Shown: piece by piece, positions 1,862 to 8,412 of the stretch | Layout of the letters: each line of letters starts with the position of its first letter | How positions within the stretch are numbered: position 1 is the first letter of the stretch | Source: Rhodospirillaceae bacterium | GTDB lineage: Bacteria; Pseudomonadota; Alphaproteobacteria; SMXQ01 | DNA: 39,781 nt | Reading direction: 5' to 3' | Assembly: GCA_947474495.1 (NCBI GenBank) | Contig: CANJIM010000026.1 | Span: forward strand, 1 to 39,781 | Made by a program: the position numbers and the translations under genes | Notes under the pieces: model-generated | The model's database searches: none | Seen by the model: only the letters and a program-made list of their open reading frames with translations | What the model was told of the DNA's origin: nothing

Positions 1862-3763
1862 ATGCCGCCTCCCCCGCCCCCGTCCACTGTCGATGCCTTG
1901 CTAAGCGCCGCCTTGGCCGATCATCGCGCCGGCCGCTTGGCCGATGCCGAACGCGGCTATCGCGCGGCGCTGGCCGCCGCGCCCGGCCACGCCGCCCCGC
2001 TGCATCTGCTCGGGGTCCTGCTCTGCCAGACCCATCAGGCCGAGGCCGGCATCGATTTGATCCGGCAAGCGGCGCGACAAGCGCCGAATGACGCGGCGAT
2101 TCACAACAATCTCGGCAATGCGCTGAAAACGCTGGGGCGAACCGAAGAATCGATCGCCGCCTTCCTCGAGACATTGCGGCTCAAGCCGGATTATGCGGAA
2201 GGCTATTACAATCTCGGCAACGGCTTGATGCTGTTGGAGCGGCATGACGCGGCCATCGCCGCTTTCCGCCGCGCCGTCGCGCTCAAGCCGAGCTTTGCCG
2301 ATGCGCAGCACAATCTCGCACAAGCGCTGATGCAAACCGGCGATTGGAGCGCGGCGCAGCAAGCCACCGAACGGGCCGCCGCGATAAAACCCGACGACCG
2401 CGAGACGGCTTATCAAGCGTTCTATCTCGCCAATCATCTGTGTGACTGGAGAGAACGCGCGCCGCGTGTCGATAAATTTAGCGCCATCGCACGCCAGCCC
2501 GAGTCGCGCCTGCATCCGTTCACATTGCTGGCGACGAGCGACGATCCCACGCTGCATCTCGCCGCCGCCCGTGGCTATGTGCGCAACGTCATCATGCCGC
2601 GTGTTGCGCCGCTCGCCTCGCTCCCCCAGGCCACGCGAGGGAACAAACTGCGCATCGCCTATCTCTCAGCGGATTTCTGCGATCACGCGACCGCCAACTT
2701 GATGGCCGGCCTGTTCGAAGCGCACGACCGCACCGGCTTCGAGATCACGGCGATCTCCTGGAGCCCGCGCGACGGCAGCGCCATGGAAGCGCGCCTGCGC
2801 CGCGCCTTCGACCGCTTCATCGATGTCCATGACATGGACGATGCCGCCGTCGCCGCGCTGATCCACGAACAGGGAGTCGATATCGCCGTCGATCTCAAGG
2901 GTTACACGCGGGACGCACGGCCCGGCATCCTCGCCCATCGTCCCGCCGCGCTGCAGGTCGCCTATATCGGCTATCCCGGCAGCATGGGCGCAGACTTCAT
3001 CGACTATGCCCTCGTCGATGCCGTCGTCGCGCCGCCAGAGGATCAAGCGCTGTACGACGAGAAGCTCGTCTGGCTGCCCGGCAGCTACCAGGTCAATGAC
3101 CGCGCCCGCGCCGTCGCGGCGACCATGCCGAGCCGCGCGGCCAATGGCCTTCCCGACAACGCCGTCGTGTTCTGCAGTTTCAACGCGTCCTACAAGCTCG
3201 GACCGCTGATGTTCGACAGCTGGATGCGCATTCTCGGCCAAGTCCCCGGCAGTGTGCTGTGGCTGCTCGAAAGCCATGCGGGCGTCGCCGACAACTTGCG
3301 GCGCGAAGCCGCCGCGCGCGGCATCGATCCGGCTCGGCTGATCTTCGCCAAACCGCGACCGGTCGCCGAGCATCTGGTGCGCATGGGACTAGCCGATCTG
3401 ATGCTCGACAACCTGCCCTACAACGCCCACACGACGACGAGCGATGCGCTATGGGTCGGCTTGCCGGTGCTGACTTGCAAAGGCCGCAGCTTCGCCGCGC
3501 GGGTTGCCGCCAGCCTGCTGGCGACCAGCGGCCTTCCCGAACTGATTGTCGAAGGTTTCGGCGATTACGAAGCGACAGCCGTCCGCTTGGCGACTAGACC
3601 GCACGAGCTGGCCGCGTTGCGCCAGCGTTTGCGAAACGGCCGCGAGAGCAATCCACTGTTCGAAACGGCGCGCTTCGCCCGCCACCTCGAAGCCGCTTAT
3701 CGCGAGATGCAGGACATCGCCTTGGCGGGGCAGCCGCCGCACGCCTTCGCCGTTTCACCGTAA
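1862..3763 (+). CDS. TPR-containing GT41 protein glycosyltransferase (OGT/SPINDLY type)
   Basis: A 633-residue protein with N-terminal tetratricopeptide repeats at about residues 10-180, for example NLGNALKTLGRTEESIAAF and NLGNGLMLLERHDAAIAAF. These are followed by the two Rossmann lobes of family GT41. Recognisable catalytic-site elements are FCDHATANL (His275, matching the OGT active-site His), NASYKLGP (Lys445, the nucleotide-sugar phosphate-binding Lys) and HTTTSDALW (523-531, sugar-nucleotide binding). GT41 enzymes add GlcNAc, fucose or another sugar to Ser/Thr of proteins, with the TPR superhelix choosing targets. Neither substrate nor sugar donor can be read here. There is no adjacent flagellin, adhesin or sugar-nucleotide gene. 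The N-terminus is a proline run (MPPPPPPS), and no strong ribosome binding site precedes it, so the start is less certain than the family. Confidence 0.92.
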   Translation: MPPPPPPSTVDALLSAALADHRAGRLADAERGYRAALAAAPGHAAPLHLLGVLLCQTHQAEAGIDLIRQAARQAPNDAAIHNNLGNALKTLGRTEESIAAFLETLRLKPDYAEGYYNLGNGLMLLERHDAAIAAFRRAVALKPSFADAQHNLAQALMQTGDWSAAQQATERAAAIKPDDRETAYQAFYLANHLCDWRERAPRVDKFSAIARQPESRLHPFTLLATSDDPTLHLAAARGYVRNVIMPRVAPLASLPQATRGNKLRIAYLSADFCDHATANLMAGLFEAHDRTGFEITAISWSPRDGSAMEARLRRAFDRFIDVHDMDDAAVAALIHEQGVDIAVDLKGYTRDARPGILAHRPAALQVAYIGYPGSMGADFIDYALVDAVVAPPEDQALYDEKLVWLPGSYQVNDRARAVAATMPSRAANGLPDNAVVFCSFNASYKLGPLMFDSWMRILGQVPGSVLWLLESHAGVADNLRREAAARGIDPARLIFAKPRPVAEHLVRMGLADLMLDNLPYNAHTTTSDALWVGLPVLTCKGRSFAARVAASLLATSGLPELIVEGFGDYEATAVRLATRPHELAALRQRLRNGRESNPLFETARFARHLEAAYREMQDIALAGQPPHAFAVSP

Positions 3764-3856
3764 CAGCCCGGCTTCTCCCGCATCGGCGGTCCTGCTAGAC
3801 TGTCGCCATAACGCGCCACAGGGCGTCGTCACGCGGCAGGGGGAGGCCGTTCGTCC

Positions 3857-4801
3857 ATGATCCGTACCACACGCCACAGTTATATTTTCGCGCTGCTCGC
3901 ATTTTTCGCGGCGGCCATCGGTTTCGCGCTGCCCGTCGCCGCGCAAGACAAGATGGAGCTGCGCACCGTCACCGACGGTGTCTACATGATGCAGAACGAC
4001 CGCGGTTCGAGCAACGCGAGCTTCGTCATCACGCCCGACGGCGTCGTCGTGCTCGACGCCGACCTTCGCACCGCCGACCAGGTGCTGGCGCAAATCCGCA
4101 AGCTGACCGACAAGAAGGTGAAGTATCTCATCACCTCTCACTCCGCCGGCGATCATGCCTCTGGCGCCTGGCAGTACCGCGAGGACAAGCCGGTCTTCAT
4201 CGCCACCAAGACGCAAATGCGCGACCTCTACATGCAAGAGGGCAAGGAGTTCGCCGAGCGCAAGAAGACCGACGAGGTCTACAAGGTCAGCGAATTGGTG
4301 CGCCCCGACCTCGGCTTCGAGGGCAGCATGACGCTCCAGTTCGGCGGCCTCACCTTCATCCTGACCGAGGAAGGCGTCGGCCACAGCACCAGCGATGTCA
4401 CCGTCTTCATTCCGCAAAAGCGCGTCATGCTGATGGGCGATCTGCTCGATACGGAAATCCACCCCGGCCAGGGCGAATCGGCCGGCGTGTTCTATTCCAA
4501 CGTGAAGGGCTGGACGCATAGCCTCGACAACATCATCGCCCGCAACCTGCCGGTCGATACCTATGTGCCGGGCCACGGGCCGGTGCATATCGGCCGCGGC
4601 GTCGCCGACCTGCAGGAGCAGAAGCGCTACTTCATCGTCATGCGCGACGAAGTGTCGAAGCTGATGAAGGCCGGCAAGTCGCTCGCAGAGATCGAGAAGA
4701 CGATCGAAGTGCCGAAGGAGTTCGCGCACTACCAGCGCAAGCCGCGCCTCGTCTCCTTCGTCAAGCTGTTCTATTACCAGACCATCGAACAGGGCTACTG
4801 A
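3857..4801 (+). CDS. Exported metallo-beta-lactamase-fold hydrolase
   Basis: A 314-residue protein. Residues 1-30 form a signal peptide with a long hydrophobic core and an AxA-like site (LPVAAQ), so it is predicted to be periplasmic. The rest is a metallo-beta-lactamase fold. The usual HxHxDH zinc motif reads HSAGDH (95-100), so the second His is Ala97, while Asp99 and His100 are kept. Downstream ligands look intact: GHSTSD (His176), MGDLLD (Asp195) and GHGPV (His240). The protein may therefore bind one metal or have an altered first site. It resembles the broad class of MBL proteins annotated as SoxH- or cyclase-like; no substrate can be assigned. GGGGGAGG lies upstream of the ATG. The gene stands alone and ends at a strong bidirectional terminator. 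Confidence 0.85.
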   Translation: MIRTTRHSYIFALLAFFAAAIGFALPVAAQDKMELRTVTDGVYMMQNDRGSSNASFVITPDGVVVLDADLRTADQVLAQIRKLTDKKVKYLITSHSAGDHASGAWQYREDKPVFIATKTQMRDLYMQEGKEFAERKKTDEVYKVSELVRPDLGFEGSMTLQFGGLTFILTEEGVGHSTSDVTVFIPQKRVMLMGDLLDTEIHPGQGESAGVFYSNVKGWTHSLDNIIARNLPVDTYVPGHGPVHIGRGVADLQEQKRYFIVMRDEVSKLMKAGKSLAEIEKTIEVPKEFAHYQRKPRLVSFVKLFYYQTIEQGY

Positions 4802-6298: not shown

Positions 6299-6997
6299 CT
6301 AGTCCAAGTCGAAGACCAGCACCTCAGCCTGCAGGTCGCCGACGCCGGTCAGGGTCACTTCGGGGACCCCTTCGAGCGCCAGGCCGTCGCCGGCCGAGAG
6401 GGTCTGGCCGTTGACCGTGACCTGACCGCCGCGCGCCACATGGATCCAGCCATTGCCGGTGGCGAGGCTGTGCGTGACTGTCTCGCCCGCCTTGAGCTTG
6501 GCGGCATGGATCGCCGCGTTGGCGTGGATCGTTACCGAGCCGTCGCGGCCGTCCGGTGTGGCAACCGGGACCAGCTTGCCGTCGGCCGACTGCAGCGCCT
6601 TCTGCTCGTAGCTCGGCGCGATGCCGTCCTTGGCAGGCTCGATCCAGATCTGCAGCAAATGCACGCCCTCACCCTGCGAAGGGTTGAACTCGCTGTGGCG
6701 GATGCCGGTGCCGGCAGACATGCGCTGAGCGTCGCCGGGACGGATTACCGAGCCGGTGCCGATGCTGTCCTTGTGCTCCAAGGAGCCGTCCAAGATGTAG
6801 GTGACGATCTCCATGTCGGCATGGCCGTGCATCGGAAAGCCCGAGACGGGCGCCACCAGGTCGTCGTTGATCACCCGCAGGTTGCGAAAGCCCATGCGGT
6901 TGGGATCGTAGTGATGGCCGAACGAGAAGCTATGCTTGCTGTTGAGCCAGTTGATCTTGGTGGCGAAGCGTTCGTTGGCGGGGAAAAGCTGCATCAT
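6299..6997 (-). CDS. Pirin-family cupin protein (YhhW-like)
   Basis: A 232-residue bicupin of the pirin family. The metal-binding residues fall where they do in human pirin: His57 and His59 in FPMHGHADMEIVTYILDG, then His101 and Glu103 in SAGTGIRHSEFN. N-terminal FGHHYDPNRMGFRNLRVIND and C-terminal SAGDGLALEGV are also typical. Family members bind iron; some, including E. coli YhhW, oxidise quercetin in vitro, but the physiological role in bacteria is mostly unsettled. GGAGGA precedes the start codon (ATGATG; the first ATG is used). Transcription comes from a promoter whose spacer is filled by a 14-bp palindrome, with a second operator near the expected start of transcription, so MarR control is likely. 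The marR gene is 0.9 kb upstream with a related operator. Confidence 0.93.
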   Translation of the reverse strand: MMQLFPANERFATKINWLNSKHSFSFGHHYDPNRMGFRNLRVINDDLVAPVSGFPMHGHADMEIVTYILDGSLEHKDSIGTGSVIRPGDAQRMSAGTGIRHSEFNPSQGEGVHLLQIWIEPAKDGIAPSYEQKALQSADGKLVPVATPDGRDGSVTIHANAAIHAAKLKAGETVTHSLATGNGWIHVARGGQVTVNGQTLSAGDGLALEGVPEVTLTGVGDLQAEVLVFDLD

Positions 6998-7044: not shown

Positions 7045-7096
7045 TTCAATGTTGAACCGTTGAGGGGTAGATAATCGTTTAACGTTAAACTTTCAA
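7045..7096 (-). promoter_or_regulatory. Pirin promoter with two MarR-type operators
   Basis: Read on the minus strand: -35 TTGAAA (7091-7096), 17-base spacer, -10 TATCTA (7068-7073). The spacer contains the perfect 14-bp palindrome GTTTAACGTTAAAC (7077-7090). A second palindrome, TTCAATGTTGAA (7045-7056), lies just downstream of the expected transcription start. Both fit TTYAA-N2-TTRAA, and their centres are 33 bp apart, close to three helical turns. A near-identical palindrome sits at the marR promoter. The arrangement is that of repression by RNA-polymerase exclusion. Confidence 0.75.
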
Positions 7097-7103
7097 GGGC
7101 CCG

Positions 7104-7895
7104 TCAGGCGGCGAACCAGGCGGCCACCGCGGCGCGCAGCGGATTGGCCGGATCGCTTAGCAATTTCAAGACGATACCCAGCGAGATCACGACCAGCAGC
7201 GGGCGGATCAGGCGCGGCCCGAAGCGCATGGCGGCATGGGAACCGAGACGGCCGCCGATGACCTGGCCGACCGCCATGGCGGCGCCGAGAATCCACAGCA
7301 CATGGCCGCCGATCGCCAGCACGATCACCGACACAAAATTGCTGGTGAAGTTCAGCACCTTGGTGTGCGCGGTGGCGCGCGTCAGCCCCATGCCGAGCAA
7401 GGTCACCAGGCTGAGCGCGAAGAATGAGCCGGTACCGGGGCCGAAGAAGCCGTCGTAAAAGCCGATGCCGCCGGCGACCGGCGCGTAAGCCAGCACGCTC
7501 AAACGCCGGTGCGAATCCTCATCGCTCGCCTTCGGCCCGAACAGGAAGTAAAGCGCGACCGCCGTCAGCAGCACGGGTAGCGCGATGAGCAGCCAATAGG
7601 TGTCGATCAGCGTCACCGTCATGGCGCCGAGGCAGGCGCCGATCAGCGTCGCGGCGATCGGCCAGCGCAGCAGCTTGAAATCGATGCGCCCGGCGCGCCA
7701 GAAGCTCCAGGTCGCCGAGGCGGTGCCGAAGCTGCCCTGGATCTTGTTGGTGGCGAGCGCGGCGACCGGCGGCACTCCGGCGGCGAGCAGCGCCGGCAGC
7801 ACGATCAGCCCGCCACCACCGGCGATGGCGTCGATGAAGCCGGCCAGCACGGCGACCAGGGCCAGCAGCGCGATGACCTCGAGCGACAGCTCCAT
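7104..7895 (-). CDS. TauE/SafE-family membrane exporter (YfcA-like)
   Basis: A 263-residue integral membrane protein, mostly hydrophobic, with about eight predicted membrane segments in two inverted halves. Each half carries the family's glycine-rich loop: GFIDAIAGGGGLIVLPALL near the N-terminus and FYDGFFGPGTGSFFALSL near residue 150. TNKIQGSFGTASATWSF is also characteristic. Characterised family members export sulfite, sulfoacetate or other small organosulfur anions; E. coli YfcA belongs here. The substrate of this one is not visible. Its ATG overlaps the marR stop (TAATG), so the two are translationally coupled and share the marR promoter. Coupling a MarR repressor, an exporter and a pirin suggests a stress or toxic-anion response; that is inference. 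Confidence 0.9.
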   Translation of the reverse strand: MELSLEVIALLALVAVLAGFIDAIAGGGGLIVLPALLAAGVPPVAALATNKIQGSFGTASATWSFWRAGRIDFKLLRWPIAATLIGACLGAMTVTLIDTYWLLIALPVLLTAVALYFLFGPKASDEDSHRRLSVLAYAPVAGGIGFYDGFFGPGTGSFFALSLVTLLGMGLTRATAHTKVLNFTSNFVSVIVLAIGGHVLWILGAAMAVGQVIGGRLGSHAAMRFGPRLIRPLLVVISLGIVLKLLSDPANPLRAAVAAWFAA

Positions 7896-8353
7896 TAGGC
7901 GCCCGCCTGCGCCAAGCCGAGTTTCTTGGCGAGCTTGCCGAGCGTCTCCTGCTCGGCCGGCGTCAGGCAGGAAAACGCCTTGGCGACATTGGCGGCGTGG
8001 CGTGGGAACAGGCCGCGGATCAATTTGCGGCCCGCCACGGTGAGTTGCACGACGAGCAGACGCTTGTCCGCCGCATCGCGCTTGCGCGACACCAGGCCGC
8101 GCTTTTCCAGATTGCCCACCACCATGGTGAGATTGCCGTCGCTTTTAAGCAGCTTGGCGGCCAAATCCTTTTGGCAGAGCGGGCCGAGATGCAGCAGCGC
8201 TTCGAGCACGCCGAACTGGCTGGTGCTCAGATTGGCTTCGGCGAACAGCGAATCGAGCCGGCCGTTCACCGCGTTGGCGGCGCGCGTCAGCTTGACCAGG
8301 GCGTCGAACGCCCGCACTTCCTCGGGCGCGCCTTGATAATGGGTCGGCATCAT
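7895..8353 (-). CDS. MarR-family transcriptional repressor
   Basis: A 152-residue MarR-type winged-helix regulator. The DNA-binding core is LSTSQFGVLEALLHLGPLCQKDLAAKLLKSDGNLTMVVGNLEKRGLVSRKRDAADKR, split here only by my reading of helix and wing boundaries. The wing Asp-Lys-Arg and the C-terminal dimerisation helices are present. It is the first gene of a two-gene unit with the TauE/SafE exporter. The palindrome TTCAATATTGAA lies on its own promoter, and two related palindromes lie on the pirin promoter, so it probably represses itself, the exporter and pirin. There is no conserved Cys in the DNA-binding helix, so the signal is not obviously thiol oxidation. Two consecutive ATG codons follow GGGGAGGGG; the first is used. 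Confidence 0.92.
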   Translation of the reverse strand: MMPTHYQGAPEEVRAFDALVKLTRAANAVNGRLDSLFAEANLSTSQFGVLEALLHLGPLCQKDLAAKLLKSDGNLTMVVGNLEKRGLVSRKRDAADKRLLVVQLTVAGRKLIRGLFPRHAANVAKAFSCLTPAEQETLGKLAKKLGLAQAGA

Positions 8354-8371
8354 CCCCTCCCCGCGATATTC

Positions 8372-8412
8372 TTCAATATTGAACTATTTAGGCCGATTCG
8401 CGCCTCCGTCAA
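8372..8412 (-). promoter_or_regulatory. marR promoter and autoregulatory operator
   Basis: Minus-strand -35 TTGACG (8407-8412), 16-base spacer and -10 TAAATA (8385-8390) are followed at once by the perfect palindrome TTCAATATTGAA (8372-8383), which covers the expected transcription start. It has the same TTYAA-N2-TTRAA architecture as the two sites at the pirin promoter. Confidence 0.72.

Follow-up and report, generated by a model that had tools for sequence, protein, structure and literature searches.

Within the window, by which we mean the whole 39.8-kb stretch of DNA analysed here (GC content 65%), three genes on the minus strand follow one another: marR (7895–8353), encoding a MarR-family repressor of 152 aa (Pfam MarR/MarR_2); tauE/safE (7104–7895), encoding a predicted membrane exporter of 263 aa (Pfam TauE, PF01925, 7.9e-53, residues 11–245); and pirin (6299–6997), encoding a quercetinase-like (YhhW) cupin of 232 aa (Pfam Pirin, 4.2e-35; Pirin_C_2, 6.7e-23). 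The second ATG of marR (8350) is the more likely start, as in the sister species. The tauE start codon and the marR stop codon share one base (TAATG), which makes co-transcription of the two genes probable. The exporter spans the TauE/SafE domain at full length, with a PRK10621-like model scoring below cut-off. The pirin is of the same family and length as the Escherichia coli quercetin 2,3-dioxygenase YhhW, and its metal-ligand pattern HxH...H.E (HxH plus HSE) aligns with the His and Glu residues of that enzyme (6UTS/1TQ5, E ~1e-61), leaving the ligands of the His3-Glu site of quercetinase-type pirins intact. A plus-strand gene ~1.5 kb beyond pirin (3857–4801) encodes a metallo-beta-lactamase-fold protein that is nearest to quinoprotein relay metallohydrolase (SoxH-related) models, below their cut-off.

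Candidate promoters precede both marR and pirin on the minus strand. The marR promoter (TTGACG-18-AATAGT, 8383–8412) matches the consensus at 9 of 12 positions and is kept in the sister species. The pirin promoter (TTGAAA-17-TATCTA, 7068–7096) was recognised from consensus and conservation, with TTGAAA at 7096–7091 and TATCTA at 7073–7068. As the latter is a weak match to the E. coli -10 consensus (3/6), the start sites of pirin and marR used below are those we infer.

Three candidate operators on two promoters
The first-pass annotation, made from the sequence alone, had described three TTYAA-N2-TTRAA sites at this locus. All three are exact in the sequence, and their placements on the two promoters hold on the minus strand, given the expected starts. 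The site at marR (TTCAATATTGAA, 8372–8383) overlaps the last base of the -10 element and the expected start, whereas the two at pirin lie, respectively, wholly within the 17-nt promoter spacer (O1, TTTAACGTTAAA, 7078–7089) and at about +6 to +17 (O2, TTCAATGTTGAA, 7045–7056; TTCAACATTGAA on the minus strand); none of the three is assigned a strand. The N2 centre originally proposed proved too loose: a pyrimidine-purine step occupies the centre in 26 of 29 collected sites, and the operator is better written TTYAA-YR-TTRAA.

The pattern TTYAANNTTRAA matches three times in the window, always at marR/pirin, as compared with a mean of 0.03 and a maximum of 1 in 100 dinucleotide shuffles. No extra site with one mismatch was found in the window, and the two matches with two mismatches are both far off. 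A genome-wide scan, proposed in the annotation as a check, returned six matches by pattern search of the 2.99 Mb genome, three of them at this locus. The reversed-pattern control gave 3 matches versus 6 for the motif, placing the motif at background outside the marR/pirin locus. Many unrelated matches in coding DNA with no promoter enrichment, the outcome named in the annotation as speaking against operators, is not what was found.

Conservation in a sister species and in another phylum
In the sister species (L037), MarR is 90% identical and the gene order uvrB-marR-tauE-pirin-aminotransferase is the same, which renders contamination of the metagenome-assembled genome unlikely. Both palindromes of the pirin promoter are identical there, set in ~58 bp of almost unchanged sequence whose flanks have diverged; the copy at the marR promoter has decayed to TTCAACATCAAA.

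The motif had been defined on the window alone, so orthologous loci in another phylum provide an independent test. Orthologues were collected by a genome scan and then from 396 genomes belonging to the phylum that includes G750, with subsets of its order and family. The first Acidobacteriaceae orthologues (48–52% MarR identity) were next to pirin, with a palindrome in front, in 6 of 6 cases; across Acidobacteriota, identity ranges from 46 to 59%, and the 41 MarR orthologues in the set examined form one clade (100/100). Nineteen loci, the window and its sister counted in as the two alphaproteobacterial members, are pirin-linked; these share ancestry and do not represent 19 independent events. 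An exact palindrome lies within 150 bp upstream of pirin in 16 of them, amounting to 19 sites against 0.015 in shuffles of the same upstream regions. Among the misses, two are explained: the L140 locus ends at the pirin start, and L144 carries one mismatch (TTTGATATTAAA). In L143, a site directly follows marR and precedes an intervening stretch. The register within the promoter is likewise kept, the operator falling inside a 17–18-nt spacer, between TTGAAA-like and (C/T)ATCT(A/T) elements, in all but one of the 15 alignable pirin promoters; both the sequence and the placement of O1 recur in Acidobacteriota. Orthologues with no pirin in the locus have an exact site in 2 of 22 cases, the two being near-identical. 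The control set comprised 57 loci with more weakly related MarR proteins; pirin neighbours none of them, and a single site was found, ~1.4 kb away. No exact match was seen anywhere in the locus of the genome's second pirin gene. The recurrence of the motif at the same place in orthologous loci with marR and pirin from a second phylum supports the original view of the sites as operators of the adjacent MarR.

Exact sites also occur upstream of marR in 8 of the 19 pirin-linked loci (shuffle mean 0.0), those beyond the window being L097, L100, L130, L131, L134, L135 and L140. This copy is degenerate in the sister species and in six Acidobacteriaceae loci (TTTAAYGTTGTA-like), suggesting that autoregulation is less conserved than the control of pirin. 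In L038–L043 (Acidobacteriaceae; ~3000–4400), the gene immediately ahead of marR is 3-hydroxyisobutyrate-dehydrogenase-like (PF03446/PF14833), and the degenerate site before marR reads TTTAAYGTTGTA in four loci, TTTGATGTTGTA in L039 and TTCAACGTTGTA in L042.

The exporter shows a different distribution. tauE is absent from every orthologous locus outside the genus, and the marR-tauE-pirin arrangement is limited to the window species and its sister, which makes TauE a local add-on, the conserved core being MarR with pirin. Thus, the single switch of MarR, TauE and pirin put forward in the annotation is supported for the MarR-pirin pair, the link to TauE being weaker and confined to these two species.

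Relationship of the repressor to MhqR
The protein scores above the Pfam MarR cut-off and is predicted to adopt a winged-helix fold with N- and C-terminal dimerisation helices. The predicted model (order alpha1-alpha2-alpha3-alpha4-wing-alpha5-alpha6) superposes on many MarR structures with Z ~14–16.6, the best matches being MftR (8YLG, DNA-bound; Z 16.6) and MhqR (Z 15.8). By sequence, the nearest solved relative is Staphylococcus aureus MhqR (9QDR/9SMZ; E 1.7e-14, ~28% identity). In MhqR, the quinone pocket is formed by F11, F39, E43 and H111, and helix residues S65, S66, S68 and Y69 read the operator TATCTCGAA-ATCGAAATA (PMC12893000), which is also given in PMC6798810. Three of these four pocket residues are retained: F39, E43 and H111 align with F47, E51 and H119, which are invariant in an alignment of eight sequences and nearly so in 52 relatives, while the equivalent of F11 is L19 here and Tyr or Phe in most relatives. 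The UrtR-type regulators MftR, PecS and HucR belong to the same winged-helix dimer family and are urate sensors; of the MhqR pocket, F11, F39 and E43 have no conserved counterparts among UrtR proteins (PMC12893000), whereas equivalents of F39 and E43 are present here.

The protein further resembles MhqR of S. aureus and Bacillus subtilis in lacking a conserved thiol and in being a putative autorepressor with an operator at its transcription start. It differs in what it would read on the DNA. The operator here is TTYAAYRTTRAA, in contrast to the TATCTCGAA-type 9-9 inverted repeat of MhqR; the base-reading residues S65/S66/S68/Y69 are replaced by G/N/T/M, and the alpha3-alpha4 loop reads S-D-G-N and not S-S/G-S. 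The named targets of MhqR are mhqRED, azoR2, mhqNOP and mhqA (PMC6798810, PMC12893000), and PMC6798810 makes no mention of pirin. Nothing relevant on MarR control of pirin or on the literal operator sequences was found among the searched literature, nor was any report of MarR control of YhhW. As far as that literature goes, the operator is undescribed, and the mechanism proposed for it is that of a classical ligand-released repressor.

A sister subfamily in Acidobacteriota (L115–L125), often encoded next to pirin, has the helix [GAP]S[MIL]T[ASTV]A and a palindrome of equal length (YTYGAYRTCRAR) located upstream of marR and not of pirin. The CTTGATATCAAG-type palindromes upstream of marR in L117–L124 show a closer likeness to the MhqR box. 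Comparison of the two subfamilies reveals that the GN-type helix goes with A at +/-3 and the S-type helix with G. Given two partial exceptions, L098 (Asn with TTCGATATCAAA) and L144, we offer as a hypothesis that the helix residue (Ser or Asn) covaries with the operator base three positions from the centre (G or A). On this view, a step from G to A at +/-3 would be matched in the recognition helix by a change of Ser to Asn and of Tyr/Ala to Met/Leu. Such a paired change of helix and operator in two related subfamilies is a test case for MarR specificity rules and, if true, would supply a natural pair for finding the helix residues that set operator choice.

A proposed switch and its alternatives
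At the sequence level the switch is real, and very probably it also functions as one. We consider it likely that the protein is MhqR-like, represses its own marR-tauE transcript as well as pirin until released by a ligand, and does so through a 12-bp operator shifted from the MhqR-type box; that its inducer is quinone-like is a more tentative proposal, somewhat short of an even chance. From the features above, we infer how binding, repression, inducer class, tauE co-transcription and the parts played by pirin and TauE might fit together. A MarR dimer would bind the 12-bp TTYAA-YR-TTRAA operators, covering the start of the marR-tauE transcript at 8372–8383 (autorepression) and filling the gap between the -35 and -10 elements of the pirin promoter at 7078–7089; a dimer there and one at the second site just past the start (7045–7056) would both block RNA polymerase. 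Upon entry of a small aromatic or quinone-like molecule into the F47, E51, H119 pocket, the recognition helix would be displaced and the dimer would leave, allowing simultaneous expression of pirin and marR-tauE. The induced pirin, a quercetinase-type metal cupin, might go on to oxidise this molecule or a related one, and export of an anionic product or by-product might fall to TauE. The role of bacterial pirins is unsettled, and a conserved, dedicated repressor-operator pair with a quinone-sensor-like pocket suggests that pirin responds to an aromatic or quinone signal; such control of pirin, if true, would be a first regulatory handle on the purpose of these proteins.

The sites could instead be MarR operators in a system where the signal is thiol oxidation by hypochlorite or peroxide, sensed through a cysteine as in regulators of the OhrR/MgrA type. 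The protein does have two cysteines, and Cys60, at the start of the DNA-binding domain, recurs in many orthologues. Yet it is absent from six Acidobacteriaceae orthologues and from L097, all of which keep the operator, and no cysteine is found among the invariant columns of the eight-sequence alignment; MhqR itself is not thiol-regulated (PMC6798810). The lack of a conserved cysteine makes a thiol switch unlikely, and conservation points instead to an MhqR-like aromatic/quinone pocket. The same pocket bears on a reading in which MarR senses sulfite or an organosulfonate, with TauE as the main effector and pirin as a secondary one. The presence of tauE in the putative marR operon would fit such a sulfur switch, as would an extra genomic site upstream of a CysQ-like gene, but TauE is missing from orthologous loci outside the genus where pirin is kept, the sister species lacks the cysQ site, and the pocket is like those for aromatic or quinone ligands. 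We therefore regard this reading as improbable.

Two further explanations concern the identity of the sites themselves. Binding was assigned from sequence, and such half-sites are not confined to the MarR family, so that another transcription factor could control pirin and marR with the adjacent MarR as a bystander. Such a factor would have to account for a motif that tracks pirin-adjacent MarR orthologues in two phyla, is nearly absent elsewhere in the genome and varies at +/-3 with the MarR recognition helix, which makes it very unlikely. Chance has the least to recommend it, with hardly any weight left in our estimate: although AT-rich 12-mers are expected to gather in the promoters of a window with 65% GC, and AT-rich promoter DNA may yield such palindromes, the excess of sites in pirin promoters over shuffled upstream regions (19 versus 0.015), the preserved promoter register and the block that is invariant between species all argue against it.

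Distribution and possible origin
Orthologues of this MarR, the putative ligand-released repressor, occur in one alphaproteobacterial genus and in Acidobacteriota. A search of the class recovered an orthologue at E <= 1e-20 in 2 of 385 genomes, both of the genus of the window, and when the phylum was searched the runner-up had an E of 1e-25 versus 5e-75 for the window's own protein; the plasmid search gave MarR matches only below 60%. In the tree, the window and sister sequences cluster as a clade within the GN-type sequences (100/100), and this clade is not firmly placed among those of Acidobacteriota. It is thus the distribution, and not the tree, that suggests horizontal acquisition from an acidobacterium-like source. 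The broader picture, in which an undescribed MarR subfamily controls pirin across two phyla through an operator one step from the MhqR-type box, and possibly moved horizontally with operator and pirin target into one alphaproteobacterial genus, is in our judgement about as probable as its converse.

Other matches in the genome
The three genomic matches outside the locus do not make a convincing case for a wider regulon in this genome, being lost in the sister, coding or at a non-homologous position. One (TTTAACATTAAA; L005:1501–1512, G000:C41:3366–3377) lies ~70 bp upstream of the CysQ-like gene and is missing in the sister species (L126); another, with a TC centre, sits within coding DNA. The third belongs to a pair of TTCAAC(A/G)TTAAA sites at non-homologous positions before CcrM-like DNA methyltransferase genes, which may reflect turnover of a real site or coincidence and which we treat as a lead only: in this genome (L001:1501–1512, G000:C22:19334–19345) it is ~200 bp upstream of the gene, and in the sister (L090:1731–1742, G756:C137:5230–5241) the site is also ~200 bp before it.
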